This document shows positions 18,283 through 23,727 of a stretch of 49,656 nt of DNA, piece by piece. Under the pieces are notes generated by a model, which did no database searches, was not told the DNA's origin, and saw only the letters and a list, made by a program, of their open reading frames with translations. Every line of letters begins with the position of its first letter. Position 1 is the first letter of the stretch. The DNA comes from Herpetosiphonaceae bacterium (GTDB lineage Bacteria; Chloroflexota; Chloroflexia; Chloroflexales; Kallotenuaceae): assembly GCA_036374795.1 (NCBI GenBank), contig DASUTC010000050.1:1-49656 (forward strand), written 5' to 3'. Made by a program: the position numbers and the translations under genes.

Positions 18283-18308
18283 AGCGCCTCGGCTTGGGCC
18301 GAGGCGCT
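18283..18308. terminator. Hairpin terminator between convergent genes
   Basis: A perfect 11-bp stem AGCGCCTCGGC / GCCGAGGCGCT with loop TTGG. It lies between the DUF3048 gene (plus) and the M23 gene (minus), so it can serve both. The flanking T tracts are weak. Confidence 0.6.
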
Positions 18309-18337: not shown

Positions 18338-19012
18338 CTATGGCAGCGCGCCGTACTCAAGCGGATTGACATTAACGCCATCTTTCCAGACGTGGTAGTG
18401 CAGGTGCGGACCGCTCGACTGTCCGGTCGAGCCCATGTAGCCAATCAGGTCGCCGCGCTTGACGGTCTGACCGTCCTGTACTGCAAAGTCTCTGAGGTGG
18501 CCGTAGCCCACTTTGTAGTGCTCGTTCTTGATCCACAGGTGATTTCCGGCGGGCATCGAGTTGGGATTAAGCTCGATCACGCCGCTCATCGTCGCGTAGA
18601 GTGGCGCGCCCATCGATCCCTGTGGATCGGCATCTCCATCGCCGTTGCCGTCGATCGCGATATCGACGCCGCCCCACACCGCAGCCGGCGCGTGCGACCC
18701 GACGCCGTAGCCCTGGGTCATGACCGCGCTTTTTGTGTCGGTGGGATTGCCCCAGGGCATATCCTGCGGATGCGAGTCTGCTGCTAAGCCGGCACCTTGC
18801 GCGGCTTGCTTGCTGAAAAGACCCGTCAGCCCTGGTTGCTGCGCTTTGAGCGCGCCGACCGCGCTTTGGGCGGCAACATTGCCGTCGCCGCTCCAACTGC
18901 TGATTACGGTGCCGGAGGAGCTGCTTCCAAAGAAGAACCAGATCGCCAGCAGCGCGGCAGCGATAGCTAGCCACGACGGTATACGATGCCCGCTACCAAG
19001 TTCAAAGTTCAT
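18338..19012 (-). CDS. Membrane-anchored M23 (LytM-like) protein lacking the first zinc ligand
   Basis: A 224-residue protein. One N-terminal membrane helix (about 13-29) is followed by a low-complexity stalk (about 30-95) and a LytM/M23 domain (about 97-224). Retained metal or active-site residues are D117, H172 (GYGHL), H203 and H205 (GPHLHYHV). The first His of the HxxxD motif (HYGVD in LytM) is Trp: WGGVD, W113. An insert DGNGDGDADPQG right after it looks like an EF-hand-type calcium loop. Such losses are typical of non-enzymatic LytM proteins (EnvC/NlpD type) that activate other wall hydrolases. It is the last gene of a three-gene operon, 6 bp after the glucosaminidase-like gene, so it may control that partner. 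Inactivity is inferred. Confidence 0.8.
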   Translation of the reverse strand: MNFELGSGHRIPSWLAIAAALLAIWFFFGSSSSGTVISSWSGDGNVAAQSAVGALKAQQPGLTGLFSKQAAQGAGLAADSHPQDMPWGNPTDTKSAVMTQGYGVGSHAPAAVWGGVDIAIDGNGDGDADPQGSMGAPLYATMSGVIELNPNSMPAGNHLWIKNEHYKVGYGHLRDFAVQDGQTVKRGDLIGYMGSTGQSSGPHLHYHVWKDGVNVNPLEYGALP

Positions 19013-19018
19013 CGCTGC

Positions 19019-19666
19019 CTACTTTCCCTGCCAGCTTTGCACCAGGTTCTTGACGCTCTGGATGTACGCGCCCTCGTTGTTGTTGTCGGCGGCAGGCGCG
19101 TACTTGGGGATGATGTCTTCGACGGTTGAGCGCTTCCACTCATCGATATACAGCCCCCGGATCAGCTTATACCAGTCTTCGATGCCCTGGCTCCAGTTGT
19201 CATAATCGCGGAAACGCCCGTAGCAGCGCCACCCCTCGGTACAAATAATATTGCCAATGTTATGAGTGGTGCTGCCGTCTGGCTTCCGACCGGCCCACGC
19301 CGGATTGGTGCCCGCGCTGGATTCGTGGATGAAGAAGGCGAGACAGATCGCGGGATTGATGCCGTACTTGACGCCCAGATCGTAGATCTCCTGGCCGTGG
19401 CCGCGCGCCGGAGAGTTATACTCGGCCAGAACAGCCTCGATCTGCTCCACGGTTATCGTTGGCGCTCCCAGCACCGACAGGCCGCCTCTATTGCTCGTGA
19501 TCGGCAGGGCAGCGGCGGCGAGAATCGACTGGGATTTACCGACCGGGTTAAATGCATCAGGCAGGCCGCTGGCGGTGGATATGACACTGCCAGGAGCCGC
19601 AGGCATCAGCCAAAAGATGACGGTGAGCGCTACAAAGCCGATCACGATCTGCTGAAGGCGTGTCAT
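19019..19666 (-). CDS. Membrane-anchored glucosaminidase-like (GH73/lysozyme-type) protein
   Basis: A 215-residue protein. A membrane helix at about 7-23 (or uncleaved signal) precedes an extracytoplasmic domain from about 70 (ITVEQIEAVLAEYNSPARG) to the end. GINPAICLAFFIHESSAGT carries the likely catalytic Glu (E115), and THNIGNIIC, CYGRFRDYDNWSQGIEDWY and IIPKYAPAADNN match the glucosaminidase-like fold used on peptidoglycan glycan strands. Its ATG overlaps the stop of the upstream gene (ATGA), and the M23-like gene follows 6 bp later, so the three are co-translated. Expected role: cutting glycan chains at the outer membrane face. The substrate bond is not determined. Confidence 0.78.
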   Translation of the reverse strand: MTRLQQIVIGFVALTVIFWLMPAAPGSVISTASGLPDAFNPVGKSQSILAAAALPITSNRGGLSVLGAPTITVEQIEAVLAEYNSPARGHGQEIYDLGVKYGINPAICLAFFIHESSAGTNPAWAGRKPDGSTTHNIGNIICTEGWRCYGRFRDYDNWSQGIEDWYKLIRGLYIDEWKRSTVEDIIPKYAPAADNNNEGAYIQSVKNLVQSWQGK

Positions 19667-20193
19667 GGATGCGCCTCAGCCAGTTGACGACGTTCGTCGT
19701 CGGTGATCAGCCGGAATGTCTCGCCGGTATTGATATAGATAATTTCTTCGTTTTTCACGGCAATCACAAGGTCGCCTTTCTGATCGCTATTCAGATCTTT
19801 GACCCGCAGCGTGACGGGTGTCAGGTCTTCATGCGCCCCAAAGAGATACGGGCCTTGCAGCGTTTGCGCCTTGGCGCTGTCCCCGCCCGGCAGCTCGATC
19901 ACAATCACGCGGCGATTGAGATTCATCGCGACGAAATGTGAGGGCTGCCCGGCCTGCTCGTTATGCCCGACGTACGCGCTTAGTTGCATTGTTCGTGGCC
20001 GACCGTAGCGCATGTCGTCGAGCCATGTCTGGCCTCGACCGATCAGCAGATTCAGAACAATGAACCCCAGTACAACAACTATACCCACCTGAATATGTTG
20101 ACGAGTAGCTTGAACCTGCGGCCACCGCACTGGTGCGGCAGGCATGCTCTTCCGTGTCGGCTGCTGATGCAGATCACGGCTTGTTACCGCCAT
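19663..20193 (-). CDS. Single-pass membrane protein with outside beta domain and an FG-GAP-like metal loop
   Basis: A 176-residue protein. About 33 cytoplasmic residues are followed by a membrane helix (about 34-52, IQVGIVVVLGFIVLNLLIG) and an outside domain of mainly beta strands. VKDLNSDQKGDLVIAVKNEE resembles one FG-GAP/VCBS unit with a DxNxDxxxD calcium loop. No known family. It is the first gene of the three-gene operon with the glucosaminidase-like and M23-like genes; all three share the short-cytoplasm, one-helix, outside-domain layout, suggesting one membrane complex. GAGGAGG lies 6 bp before the ATG. It is expressed from the tandem promoters at 20306-20421, one of which carries a LexA-type palindrome. 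Confidence 0.65.
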   Translation of the reverse strand: MAVTSRDLHQQPTRKSMPAAPVRWPQVQATRQHIQVGIVVVLGFIVLNLLIGRGQTWLDDMRYGRPRTMQLSAYVGHNEQAGQPSHFVAMNLNRRVIVIELPGGDSAKAQTLQGPYLFGAHEDLTPVTLRVKDLNSDQKGDLVIAVKNEEIIYINTGETFRLITDDERRQLAEAHP

Positions 20194-20305
20194 CGCCGTC
20201 CTCCTCTACCCATTTTCTCAAAACTCGGTCGCGCGTACTTCGAGCATTCTGTTGGGGATACAGCACACGACGTGGTATGCCCTGATGCTCGATTGAAGTA
20301 GAACT

Positions 20306-20334
20306 ATTATAATAGAACGGGTGTTCTACGTCAA
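20306..20334 (-). promoter_or_regulatory. Proximal promoter P1 of the wall-hydrolase operon
   Basis: On the minus strand: TTGACG (20334-20329), exactly 17 bp, then a perfect TATAAT (20311-20306). It is among the best sigma-70-like promoters in the window. The start point would be near 20299, giving a leader of about 105 nt to the ATG at 20193. The spacer is almost wholly occupied by an inverted repeat. Confidence 0.75.
20313..20328. promoter_or_regulatory. LexA-type operator (TAGAAC-N4-GTTCTA) inside P1
   Basis: A perfect 6-bp inverted repeat, TAGAAC GGGT GTTCTA on the plus strand, fills positions between the -35 and -10 of P1. GAAC-N4-GTTC is the core of LexA (SOS) boxes in Firmicutes and Actinobacteria. 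A further TAGAAC half site lies at 20299-20304, over the predicted start point. A repressor bound here would block P1. Another repressor with the same half site is possible. Confidence 0.55.
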
Positions 20335-20392
20335 GCGCGTATTCTGCTGGCGATGACCGGCGTTCTCCGTGTTCTCGACATATGTCAAGCGT

Positions 20393-20421
20393 ATTGTAGC
20401 GAACTAGAGGGATCAAATCAA
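20393..20421 (-). promoter_or_regulatory. Distal promoter P2 of the wall-hydrolase operon
   Basis: On the minus strand: TTGATT (20421-20416), a 17-bp spacer, TACAAT (20398-20393). It lies about 87 bp upstream of P1 and reads into it. No GAAC palindrome covers it. The rest of 20194-20556 holds P1, its operator and the amidase terminator; no gene is seen. Confidence 0.5.
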
Positions 20422-20556: not shown

Positions 20557-23500
20557 CTAGCGCGAGATGCTCGGCGTGTAGATCATCGGATAGCTCGCCT
20601 CGGCGATTGTCTCCGTCGCCTGGGGGCTGCTGGGGAACGCCGACCAGTTCAGGCCGTCGCTGGCGCGTACGCGGAACTCATAGGTATGCCCGCTCATGCC
20701 AAAGAAGAGCATCTGCCGCTGCCCCGTTTTGTACAGCCGCGTTGTGCCGTCGGTTCGATCTCGCACCTGTAGCTCGAATTGAGCCAGATCCGAGGCATTG
20801 CTGCTGAGGTACACCTCGACGATGCCGGTGCTGCGCGCCGATGTGTCCACCGCGCTATCCGGCGGCGTCGCGTCGACCGTCATCGTCATGGTTCGCTGAT
20901 AGCCGCTATTGCCGTTGTTGTCCTCGGCCTGGTACACGATCGTATGGCTGCCGTCGCCAAGGCTGATCGGCACACGGCCCGACGCGCTCTGCTGCTCGCC
21001 GCCGCCGTCGATCCAGTAGCGCATGGTACGTATGCCGCTACCGCCCAGGTCATCCGCTGCCAGCACAAGCTGCTGCCCGCCGCCGAAGCGCGTGCCATCG
21101 TAGATCGCGCCGCTCGGCGCTGGCACGGTGGTAAATTCGGCGGCACCGGGCGGCTGCCAGCTATAGCCAGCGTATGCCTCGCCCGCGTTTTCAAAGAATT
21201 TGACCGCCAGCGTGTGCAGCCCAGTCGCCAGATAGACCGATCCTTCCTTGGAGGATGTGGGATGCAATCCTTCGTTGCGCACGACTTCGCGCCCATCGAC
21301 CCACAGCCACGCGCCATCATCGCTGGTGACGCGGAACCTGTAGGTGCCCGAAGCCGGAACGTAGAAGGCGCGCACCTGCCGCACCACAAAGCGCTCGGTC
21401 TGGCCGAGCGGCCCAGCACCGGCCCAGTTTTGGTCGCTGCCATCCCAGGTAAACGCTCCGATGTAGGAGCCCTCGATGATCGAGAGCGGATTGACCGTGC
21501 GCGCCAGCAGACTGTCGGGCGTGGGAATAAGCTGGTAGACGCTGGCCTGTGACTTGTAAGCATTGTCGAGGCGGATCGGCTCAGGCGCGCGGCGCTCAGG
21601 TGTCACCGTTACCGCAGCCGTCGTCCGATCTGCGCCGTTGCCGTCCGAGCCGTAGTACTTGACGAACTCGTTGACAAGGTTCGCCTTGAAGGTGTACGTG
21701 CCCGGCGTGCGGAATCGTACATAGCCTATGATCGTGCGTGTCTCGCCCGGCTGGATCGGCCAGCCAACGCCCCAGCGCCAGGGATACCCGCCATCGCCGG
21801 TGCTGCAATCGGTCGGCACCGTTGGCGAGCCGCTGGCAAAGCCCAGCGTCAGCCTCAGCCGCTTCGGCTCCTTGGGATACGCCGGATACGAGCTACCACC
21901 GGCGAAACATTCGGCCTCATCATAGACCCAGCCGCCAGCAATATCGTCGGTCGCGCCGGAGTCCGGCCCCTGCGTTTCGAGCGTCACGGTGCCCGTGTTT
22001 TTGACGGTAAACTCGACCGGCACAACCTCGCCCACGCCCACGCTCGTCGTACGAACCGTGGCCGAAAGAAGCTGCGCCGAGGCCTGCGGCGGCGGCGGTG
22101 GTTGATAAACCCACTGAACCGCGTCGAAGAAGACAACCTTGCGCGCGCTGAATGGCTCGCTGGTCAGATCAGTGAGCTTCACGCTGCCGCCGGTGCCCGC
22201 GTCGAACTGGAAGACGCCAAGCTCGACCCATTCCTGAGCCGTATTCTGATCGACTACTTTGGTCGTCGTACCGCCTGCGTAGCGCACCTCGTAGCGCGCG
22301 TTGGTGGTGGCATACGGCGGCGACGCGATGGCGCAGCCCTGCGGAATATGCACCAGGACTTTGTACTGCCCGGTGTGCGGTAAGTTCGGACGCCACACGC
22401 CCCAGTTTGTGCTGGCGACGCCTTCGCTGCCGTTGGTGGCGTAGGTCCAGTAGGTATGCCCGGCGTAGCCACACGACCGATCGTGCCATGAGCCGGCTGA
22501 CGTAAACGAGGTTTCCAGCTCATCGATCACCGCATCGCCGTTATCGCTGCCGCCGCCGTGGAGCCGCTGATAGACCCGCTGGCGAACCGAGGTCAGCACT
22601 TCCATGCCTTTATCGCCGGGGCAGGTCGTATGGCCCGGCGTCACCTGGCGATGCCCGGCAATGTTCAGCACGACCGAGCCGCTGTTGAACGGCGCGCAGT
22701 AGTTGGAGCGCGAGCAGCCGTAGTACCAGCTACTCCCCAGCGGATCGATGTTGCGCTGGCTGGCTTTCCACGAGAGCAGATCGACCAGACTATTTTGTGC
22801 GGCGGTAGTCGGCGTGACCGTGGTATAGGTGCCGATCATCGAGACGCCCATCGAGCCGTAGTTGGCCGTATCGTGGAAGCCGACCGCATCACGCGATAGA
22901 TCGGTCGATCCCGCGCGTCCGGCATAGATCACGCCGTTGGGATCGATCAGCCAGTTATAGCCGATGTCGCCCCAGCCTCGGCTGTAGGTGTGAAACGACC
23001 AGATCGCTCGTACGCGCGTTGCCCAGTTCGGCTCGTTCGGCCCCAGCGTGTTGGAGTCGGCGGTGTGGTGAACGACCAGATGGTTGGCGGTATAGTAGGC
23101 GGGCGGCGCATTCGGCGCGTACTCCCCCTGCGGATTGCCCCATCCGGTCCGCGAAATATACGCCGGGCGGGCGATACCCATCGGGCTGACCGCGCCGTCG
23201 CTGGTGGGCACGGCCAGCGCCGCGCTGTCGATCCGGGCGTCGACGGTATGAACCTGGATCGCGCCGAAGGTCGGCAGTGCGCCATCCGAACCCGGCGTGC
23301 GTGTGATCCGCAGTTGATAGAAGCGCGCAACATCGGTGTAGATGATGTCGCTCCAGTGGGTATCTGCCGGCTCGCTGGGATCGGGCGGATCATCGCTCTC
23401 TTGAACGTCGCGCCACGCAGACCAGCCGCTCCCGTCGGCGCTGCTACGCACTTCGAGCTTAAGCAACGCTGCGGCTGGCTGAGCGGCCTGCCAGCGCAGC

Positions 23501-23727
23501 ATCATATACATGAATGTCTGCGACGTGGCAATCCGATCGGTTTCGACGACCTCGCTACCGCTGGCAGCGCTCTGGTCGGCGCTACGGTGAAAGGCATCCT
23601 GGGCGATGATGGACACGGCAGGCTTCAGGTCGCTCGTTGTTGTCTCCGCATGAGCAACACTGAGCAGAATCAGCGCGCAGGCCAAAAAAACGAGCGCGCT
23701 GATCGACCGGAGTGCATGACGAATCAT
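20557..23727 (-). CDS. Large secreted N-acetylmuramoyl-L-alanine amidase with PGRP, golvesin-like and PA14 domains
   Basis: A 1056-residue exported protein. The signal peptide (1-27) ends in SVAHA. A discoidin-like beta region leads to a PGRP/amidase domain (about 190-375) with zinc-ligand signatures LVVHHTAD (near 219) and AGHRQVTPGHTTCPGD (near 359), so it should cut the lactyl-amide bond of peptidoglycan. A golvesin/Xly-type beta domain follows (about 400-545), then a CARDB-like region (about 555-690), a PA14 domain (about 730-865, RFRVTSDDGAWLWVDG), an Ig-like GDGSHTIVYQAEDNNGN unit (about 890-950) and a fibronectin-like end. Multiple sugar-binding-like modules suggest retention on the wall or sheath. 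GGAGT precedes the ATG. Monocistronic, with its own terminator. It may act in wall turnover, predation or competition; that is inference. Confidence 0.85.
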   Translation of the reverse strand: MIRHALRSISALVFLACALILLSVAHAETTTSDLKPAVSIIAQDAFHRSADQSAASGSEVVETDRIATSQTFMYMMLRWQAAQPAAALLKLEVRSSADGSGWSAWRDVQESDDPPDPSEPADTHWSDIIYTDVARFYQLRITRTPGSDGALPTFGAIQVHTVDARIDSAALAVPTSDGAVSPMGIARPAYISRTGWGNPQGEYAPNAPPAYYTANHLVVHHTADSNTLGPNEPNWATRVRAIWSFHTYSRGWGDIGYNWLIDPNGVIYAGRAGSTDLSRDAVGFHDTANYGSMGVSMIGTYTTVTPTTAAQNSLVDLLSWKASQRNIDPLGSSWYYGCSRSNYCAPFNSGSVVLNIAGHRQVTPGHTTCPGDKGMEVLTSVRQRVYQRLHGGGSDNGDAVIDELETSFTSAGSWHDRSCGYAGHTYWTYATNGSEGVASTNWGVWRPNLPHTGQYKVLVHIPQGCAIASPPYATTNARYEVRYAGGTTTKVVDQNTAQEWVELGVFQFDAGTGGSVKLTDLTSEPFSARKVVFFDAVQWVYQPPPPPQASAQLLSATVRTTSVGVGEVVPVEFTVKNTGTVTLETQGPDSGATDDIAGGWVYDEAECFAGGSSYPAYPKEPKRLRLTLGFASGSPTVPTDCSTGDGGYPWRWGVGWPIQPGETRTIIGYVRFRTPGTYTFKANLVNEFVKYYGSDGNGADRTTAAVTVTPERRAPEPIRLDNAYKSQASVYQLIPTPDSLLARTVNPLSIIEGSYIGAFTWDGSDQNWAGAGPLGQTERFVVRQVRAFYVPASGTYRFRVTSDDGAWLWVDGREVVRNEGLHPTSSKEGSVYLATGLHTLAVKFFENAGEAYAGYSWQPPGAAEFTTVPAPSGAIYDGTRFGGGQQLVLAADDLGGSGIRTMRYWIDGGGEQQSASGRVPISLGDGSHTIVYQAEDNNGNSGYQRTMTMTVDATPPDSAVDTSARSTGIVEVYLSSNASDLAQFELQVRDRTDGTTRLYKTGQRQMLFFGMSGHTYEFRVRASDGLNWSAFPSSPQATETIAEASYPMIYTPSISR

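Follow-up and report, generated by a model that had tools for sequence, protein, structure and literature searches.

A predicted LexA-controlled operon of three membrane-anchored envelope proteins conserved in an order of Chloroflexota

A three-gene operon on the minus strand of a 49,656-nucleotide stretch of Herpetosiphonaceae DNA (contig DASUTC010000050.1; hereafter, the window) is best explained as a conserved, LexA-repressed envelope operon of its order, which would pause or remodel the septal wall; we rate this overall reading slightly above even. Its parts differ in strength: control by LexA is predicted with high confidence, an action on the cell wall is likely, and the assignment of a division checkpoint as the purpose, which rests on analogy, has an even chance of being right.

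Operon layout and promoter architecture

Gene 1 (19663–20193, minus strand) encodes p1, a protein of 176 aa in which one membrane helix joins a short cytoplasmic part to an FG-GAP-like outside domain carrying a D-x-N-x-D-x-x-x-D loop. Gene 2 (19019–19666, minus strand) encodes p2, a membrane-anchored, glucosaminidase-like protein of 215 aa, and gene 3 (18338–19012, minus strand) encodes p3, a membrane-anchored M23/LytM domain protein of 224 aa with a degenerate canonical zinc site. Genes 1 and 2 share an ATGA overlap, and a gap of 6 bp separates genes 2 and 3. Each protein has a single strongly hydrophobic stretch near its N-terminus (residues 29–56, 2–30 and 10–33 of p1, p2 and p3, respectively), and therefore most of each protein should be located outside. 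Both the coordinates and these stretches bear out the original prediction of three overlapping or tightly spaced genes whose products have one membrane helix each. A hairpin (18283–18308, strand not assigned) lies between the operon and a DUF3048 gene converging on it, and probably marks the operon end. Directly upstream, on the same strand, is a gene for a large secreted amidase (20557–23727; Amidase_2, Golvesin_C and PA14 domains); no evidence of shared control between this gene and the operon was found.

The promoter scan placed the −35 hexamer TTGACG at 20329–20334 and the −10 hexamer TATAAT at 20306–20311 (minus strand), giving 11 of 12 consensus matches with a spacer of 17 bp. The spacer holds a putative LexA-type operator, TAGAAC-ACCC-GTTCTA (TAGAACACCCGTTCTA; 20313–20328, minus strand), with its GAAC-N4-GTTC core at 20315–20326, and this promoter is the sole site of TAGAACN4GTTCTA in the 7.75-Mb genome. 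The promoter with a perfect palindrome in its spacer was thus found as predicted, and so was an extra TAGAAC half operator at the likely start point (20299–20304, listed on the minus strand, with its letters read on the plus strand), which occupies the same position in one orthologue from the same genus (L028). The prediction of a second promoter further upstream fared less well: TTGATT-17-TACAAT is present there (20393–20421, minus strand), but this weak candidate, with 9 of 12 matches, scores no better than chance (two in the region versus 0.9 in shuffles).

Conservation of the box and the predicted LexA regulon

For 92 loci with a gene-1 homologue, gathered across the class, we scored the 250 bp upstream. 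A perfect GAAC-N4-GTTC was present in 50 of these loci, compared with 0.4 in shuffles, although the loci are related by descent and do not amount to 92 independent tests. At the same loci, other spacings gave 0–1 matches, and the next-best 4+4 dyad gave six. In 47 of the 92 loci, a box with at most one change sat in the spacer of a recognisable promoter, 6–9 bases from the −35 start, and its central four bases varied among the homologues. Where gene 2 followed downstream (n = 41), 28 loci had a perfect box and 32 had at most one change; for loci without gene 2 downstream (n = 51), the counts were 23 and 38. Several homologue promoters contained a second box 23–39 bp away, in agreement with the half site at 20299–20304. 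Many of the 92 homologues, including operons from outside the order (L107–L109, L114), showed no recognisable box. When homologues are compared, conservation of the putative operator is nevertheless far above chance, and the proposed check that the palindrome be kept upstream of orthologous operons came out in favour of the prediction.

Among the other 18 GAAC-N4-GTTC sites in the genome, one (L012) likewise lies inside a promoter, TTGACT-17-TATACT. The gene behind it is a solo gene-1 paralogue (L012/L025, G000:C123:64734-65252), 56 percent identical and equipped with a LexA-type promoter like that of the operon. This solo paralogue is boxed in many genomes, and a second copy is present in most genomes of the order. 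In the solo copies of one genus (g6), a weak box with one mismatch, 12 bases before the −35, was not counted; a perfect box lies further downstream in these copies.

Of 158 genomes of the class, 84 carry gene 1, in most cases twice: once at the head of the operon and once as a solo gene. In the phylum, the count is 71 of 400 genomes. The gene order p1-p2-p3 was seen in several families. Beyond the order, genes 1 and 2 still occur as a pair but no box is visible; clear LexA control therefore seems to be a trait of this order, which is probably Chloroflexales. This lineage of Chloroflexota is known for multicellular filaments. A Ktedonobacteria-like family with large genomes (f30) contributes many copies; some of its members carry at least eight gene-1 homologues, with eight candidates scored per genome. 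Of 20 p1 copies in Ktedonobacteria-like genomes, five had a perfect box no more than 600 bp away (shuffles, 0.16); LexA control is only suggested there, because these boxes mostly have no clear promoter around them.

The box, altered at a single base each time, precedes both lexA (TTGACA-GAACATTGGTGC-6-TATACT) and recA (GAACAGGCGTGC-TATACT) in this genome, as the original prediction would have it. Across the order, GAACNNNNGTGC adjoins the −10 in 20 of 31 recA loci, and TTGAC-N0-4-GAAC-N4-GT was found in 20 of 31 lexA loci. Scanning five genomes of the family for a box followed by a −10 returned 8, 8, 8, 7 and 9 matches, versus 1, 0, 0, 2 and 0 when the pattern was reversed. The genes that recurred behind these boxes were recA, lexA, both gene-1 paralogues, an ssb operon, a deoxynucleoside kinase (dNK) gene and a DUF6504-like gene pair, with match values of 3e-30 for SSB and 8e-34 for dNK. 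Boxes at recA, lexA, ssb and the deoxynucleoside kinase correspond to the make-up of an SOS regulon and, together with the conservation among orthologues, back the claim of a LexA-type operator over the operon.

Several features of the boxed genes were recorded alongside. The small boxed genes (L253, L266, L270; L200, L204, L215) encode a DUF6504-like protein of about 100–120 aa, the resemblance to DUF6504 being seen in one relative, and in several genomes a gene for a protein of 75–110 aa (xxFYLxWFDDDRKK or similar) follows. The boxed SSB gene (L256, L258, L265) is preceded by one for a protein of 240–260 aa, the first 160 aa of which had no Pfam match. The core motif GAAC-N4-GTTC is rare in this genome (19 copies versus 106 for the reversed control), whereas three relatives (G052, G007 and G064) show an excess, which in G064 (108 versus 29) hints at a larger regulon.

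The LexA of this genome appears complete: it combines DNA-binding and S24 domains and has an A101-G102 cleavage site, the serine of a GNSM motif and, in the segment where one is expected, a lysine. The five other matches to the LexA-type DNA-binding domain all fall in short open frames of 114–136 aa, so only one full, S24-bearing LexA is seen. The core identified at lexA, recA and ssb is identical to that of the Gram-positive-type LexA box, from which the local sites differ in that recA has GAAC-N4-GTGC abutting the −10 and the right halves at lexA are degenerate. A LexA site of the GAAC-N4-GTTC type has reportedly been described for Dehalococcoides. That the palindrome serves another regulator is very improbable: the recA and lexA boxes are one base off it and five further LexA-type domains are encoded, but recA, lexA, ssb and dNK have a common box beside or inside their promoters, and those five domains lie in short frames.

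Predicted properties of the three proteins

A Pfam search with p1 itself gave no match, and 27 of 34 p1 homologues matched FG-GAP_3 weakly to moderately (best 4e-7) over one stretch, with one blade visible. Several such repeats make up the propeller of FG-GAP/VCBS proteins. Near-invariant positions include DD..YGRPRT, which immediately follows the membrane helix, GPYLFG..E.LTP and the D-x-N/D-x-D-x-x-x-D loop. A profile of p1 found nothing in the PDB at the sequence level, and the AlphaFold model, built from a three-sequence alignment, had a mean pLDDT of 48 and was not used. By its sequence, p1 appears to represent an unnamed family with one membrane helix and an FG-GAP-like domain, without a close known relative.

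The match of p2 to the Pfam Glucosaminidase family (PF01832; 1.1e-6, 29.8 bits) falls just under the 30.2 cut-off. The glutamate E115 is present in 40 of 40 homologues, the HES and GNI motifs of this GH73-like family are conserved in p2 too, and a PDB search gave a weak match to an N-acetylglucosaminidase. What distinguishes p2 from the family is its membrane anchor, its genetic tie to p3 and the LexA-type box.

Pfam assigned p3 to Peptidase_M23 (PF01551) with 1.2e-22, yet the canonical zinc ligands H, D and H are not all in place. The first zinc His of HxGxD is W113, a substitution present in 26 of 26 homologues, which fits the earlier remark about LytM proteins lacking a zinc ligand. The last zinc His, H205, is replaced by D in 16 of 26, and the two catalytic histidines are kept. 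A conserved upstream residue, His107, might act as an alternative metal ligand. Like the degenerate LytM proteins EnvC, NlpD, ActS and SpoIIQ, p3 is an M23 domain by sequence with an incomplete canonical zinc site and an envelope location, and its NCBIfam matches were far below the cut-offs. Unlike them, it has tryptophan at the first His position in every one of the 26 homologues, an extra D-rich loop before GAPxYAT and the conserved His107. The AlphaFold model of p3 (three-sequence alignment; mean pLDDT 40) was not used.

Glucosaminidase and M23 domains are fused on two virus-like IMG/VR contigs, one of which has the same W and D changes as p3; these fusions support a joint action of genes 2 and 3. 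Fused or paired versions of the two domains occur on the virus-like contigs L277, L278 and L280; their neighbours in L278 are a beta clamp, an actin-like partition protein and an FtsK-like ATPase. A search with p3 found no p3 on viral contigs, and p1 was not found there either.

Proposed role and relation to known SOS division inhibitors

At rest, LexA would occupy GAAC-N4-GTTC between the −35 and −10 and block RNA polymerase. DNA damage would lead to RecA filaments and self-cleavage of LexA, and p1, p2 and p3 would then be expressed alongside recA, ssb and other damage genes. On the outer side of the membrane, p2 would probably cut glycan strands, while p3, with its M23 domain deprived of a canonical zinc ligand, would probably bind the wall and position or activate p2. 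The FG-GAP-like p1, which a second LexA-boxed gene would also supply on its own, would probably dock on the wall or the division complex. Induction by damage, wall cutting by p2 and a complex of the three proteins are what we infer from the sequences; division as the target is suggested by analogy. The original prediction offered division control, lysis or DNA exchange as possible outcomes. The purpose would most likely be a division or septum checkpoint, in which the septal wall is stopped or remodelled until repair is done.

The analogy is with the SOS-induced inhibitors YneA, ChiZ, SosA and SidA, mostly small single-pass membrane proteins that act on late septal wall synthesis (PMC13396833; PMC3989709). 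YneA needs a wall-binding domain and binds FtsW (PMC13396833), and ChiZ is reported to be a wall hydrolase (PMC3989709). Including DivS, this group of damage-induced proteins (YneA in Bacillus, ChiZ/Rv2719c in Mycobacterium, DivS in Corynebacterium, SosA in Staphylococcus and SidA in Caulobacter) mostly combines one membrane helix with an outside part touching the wall or septal complex. Since the known inhibitors are mostly single-pass proteins acting at the septum and the operon follows the same logic, a single-pass design behind a LexA-type box, a division or septum checkpoint is favoured. The operon differs in being a three-gene module and not one small protein. YneA and ChiZ have a LysM domain, for which Pfam gave no match in p1, p2 or p3, and no sequence link of p1 or the p2/p3 pair to YneA, ChiZ, DivS, SosA or SidA was detected. 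By the features tested, the operon lies outside the YneA/ChiZ families, but it may work like them.

An SOS-induced self-lysis or release, in which p2 and p3, as anchored hydrolases, would breach the wall in a fraction of the cells and free contents or DNA, or would break filaments, is an unlikely alternative to the checkpoint. It would suit the invariant catalytic-type glutamate retained by p2, the matches of p3 to phage endolysin and metallo-endopeptidase families and the fusions on virus-like contigs, and there are precedents in other systems for lysis driven by SOS and for the release of colicins (PMC4834629, PMC4353708). Self-lysis fits poorly with an operon that lacks a holin-like gene, encodes three anchored rather than free proteins and is conserved over the order; the solo copy of p1, which comes with no hydrolase, and the absence of p1 from the viral contigs searched also speak against it. 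A phage lysis cassette as the main reading was rejected because of the anchoring and the conservation across the order.

We consider it equally improbable that the operon serves to repair the envelope or to remodel the wall in general under stress, and is controlled by LexA simply because DNA damage and envelope stress occur together. An anchored glucosaminidase with a LytM domain fits ordinary wall turnover, and the unboxed operons outside the order agree with this; within the order, however, the box is conserved here no worse than at recA and lexA and often lacks the base change found at those two genes, and the solo p1 paralogue is boxed too in many genomes.

A literature search returned no LexA or SOS study in Chloroflexota beyond passing mentions, and the boxes described here offer an initial sketch of the SOS regulon of the order, with p1 as its most distinctive output. 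We tentatively suggest a new SOS checkpoint of Chloroflexota, in which p1, duplicated and LexA-controlled in both copies, would act with a glucosaminidase and a non-canonical LytM protein to halt or reshape septa, replacing inhibitors of the YneA/SulA type. The proteins that probably couple DNA damage to the cell wall here are unlike the division blockers described for other bacteria. SOS division control seems to have arisen several times via unrelated small membrane proteins, and a multi-gene SOS division module with wall enzymes would, if true, be a new solution.
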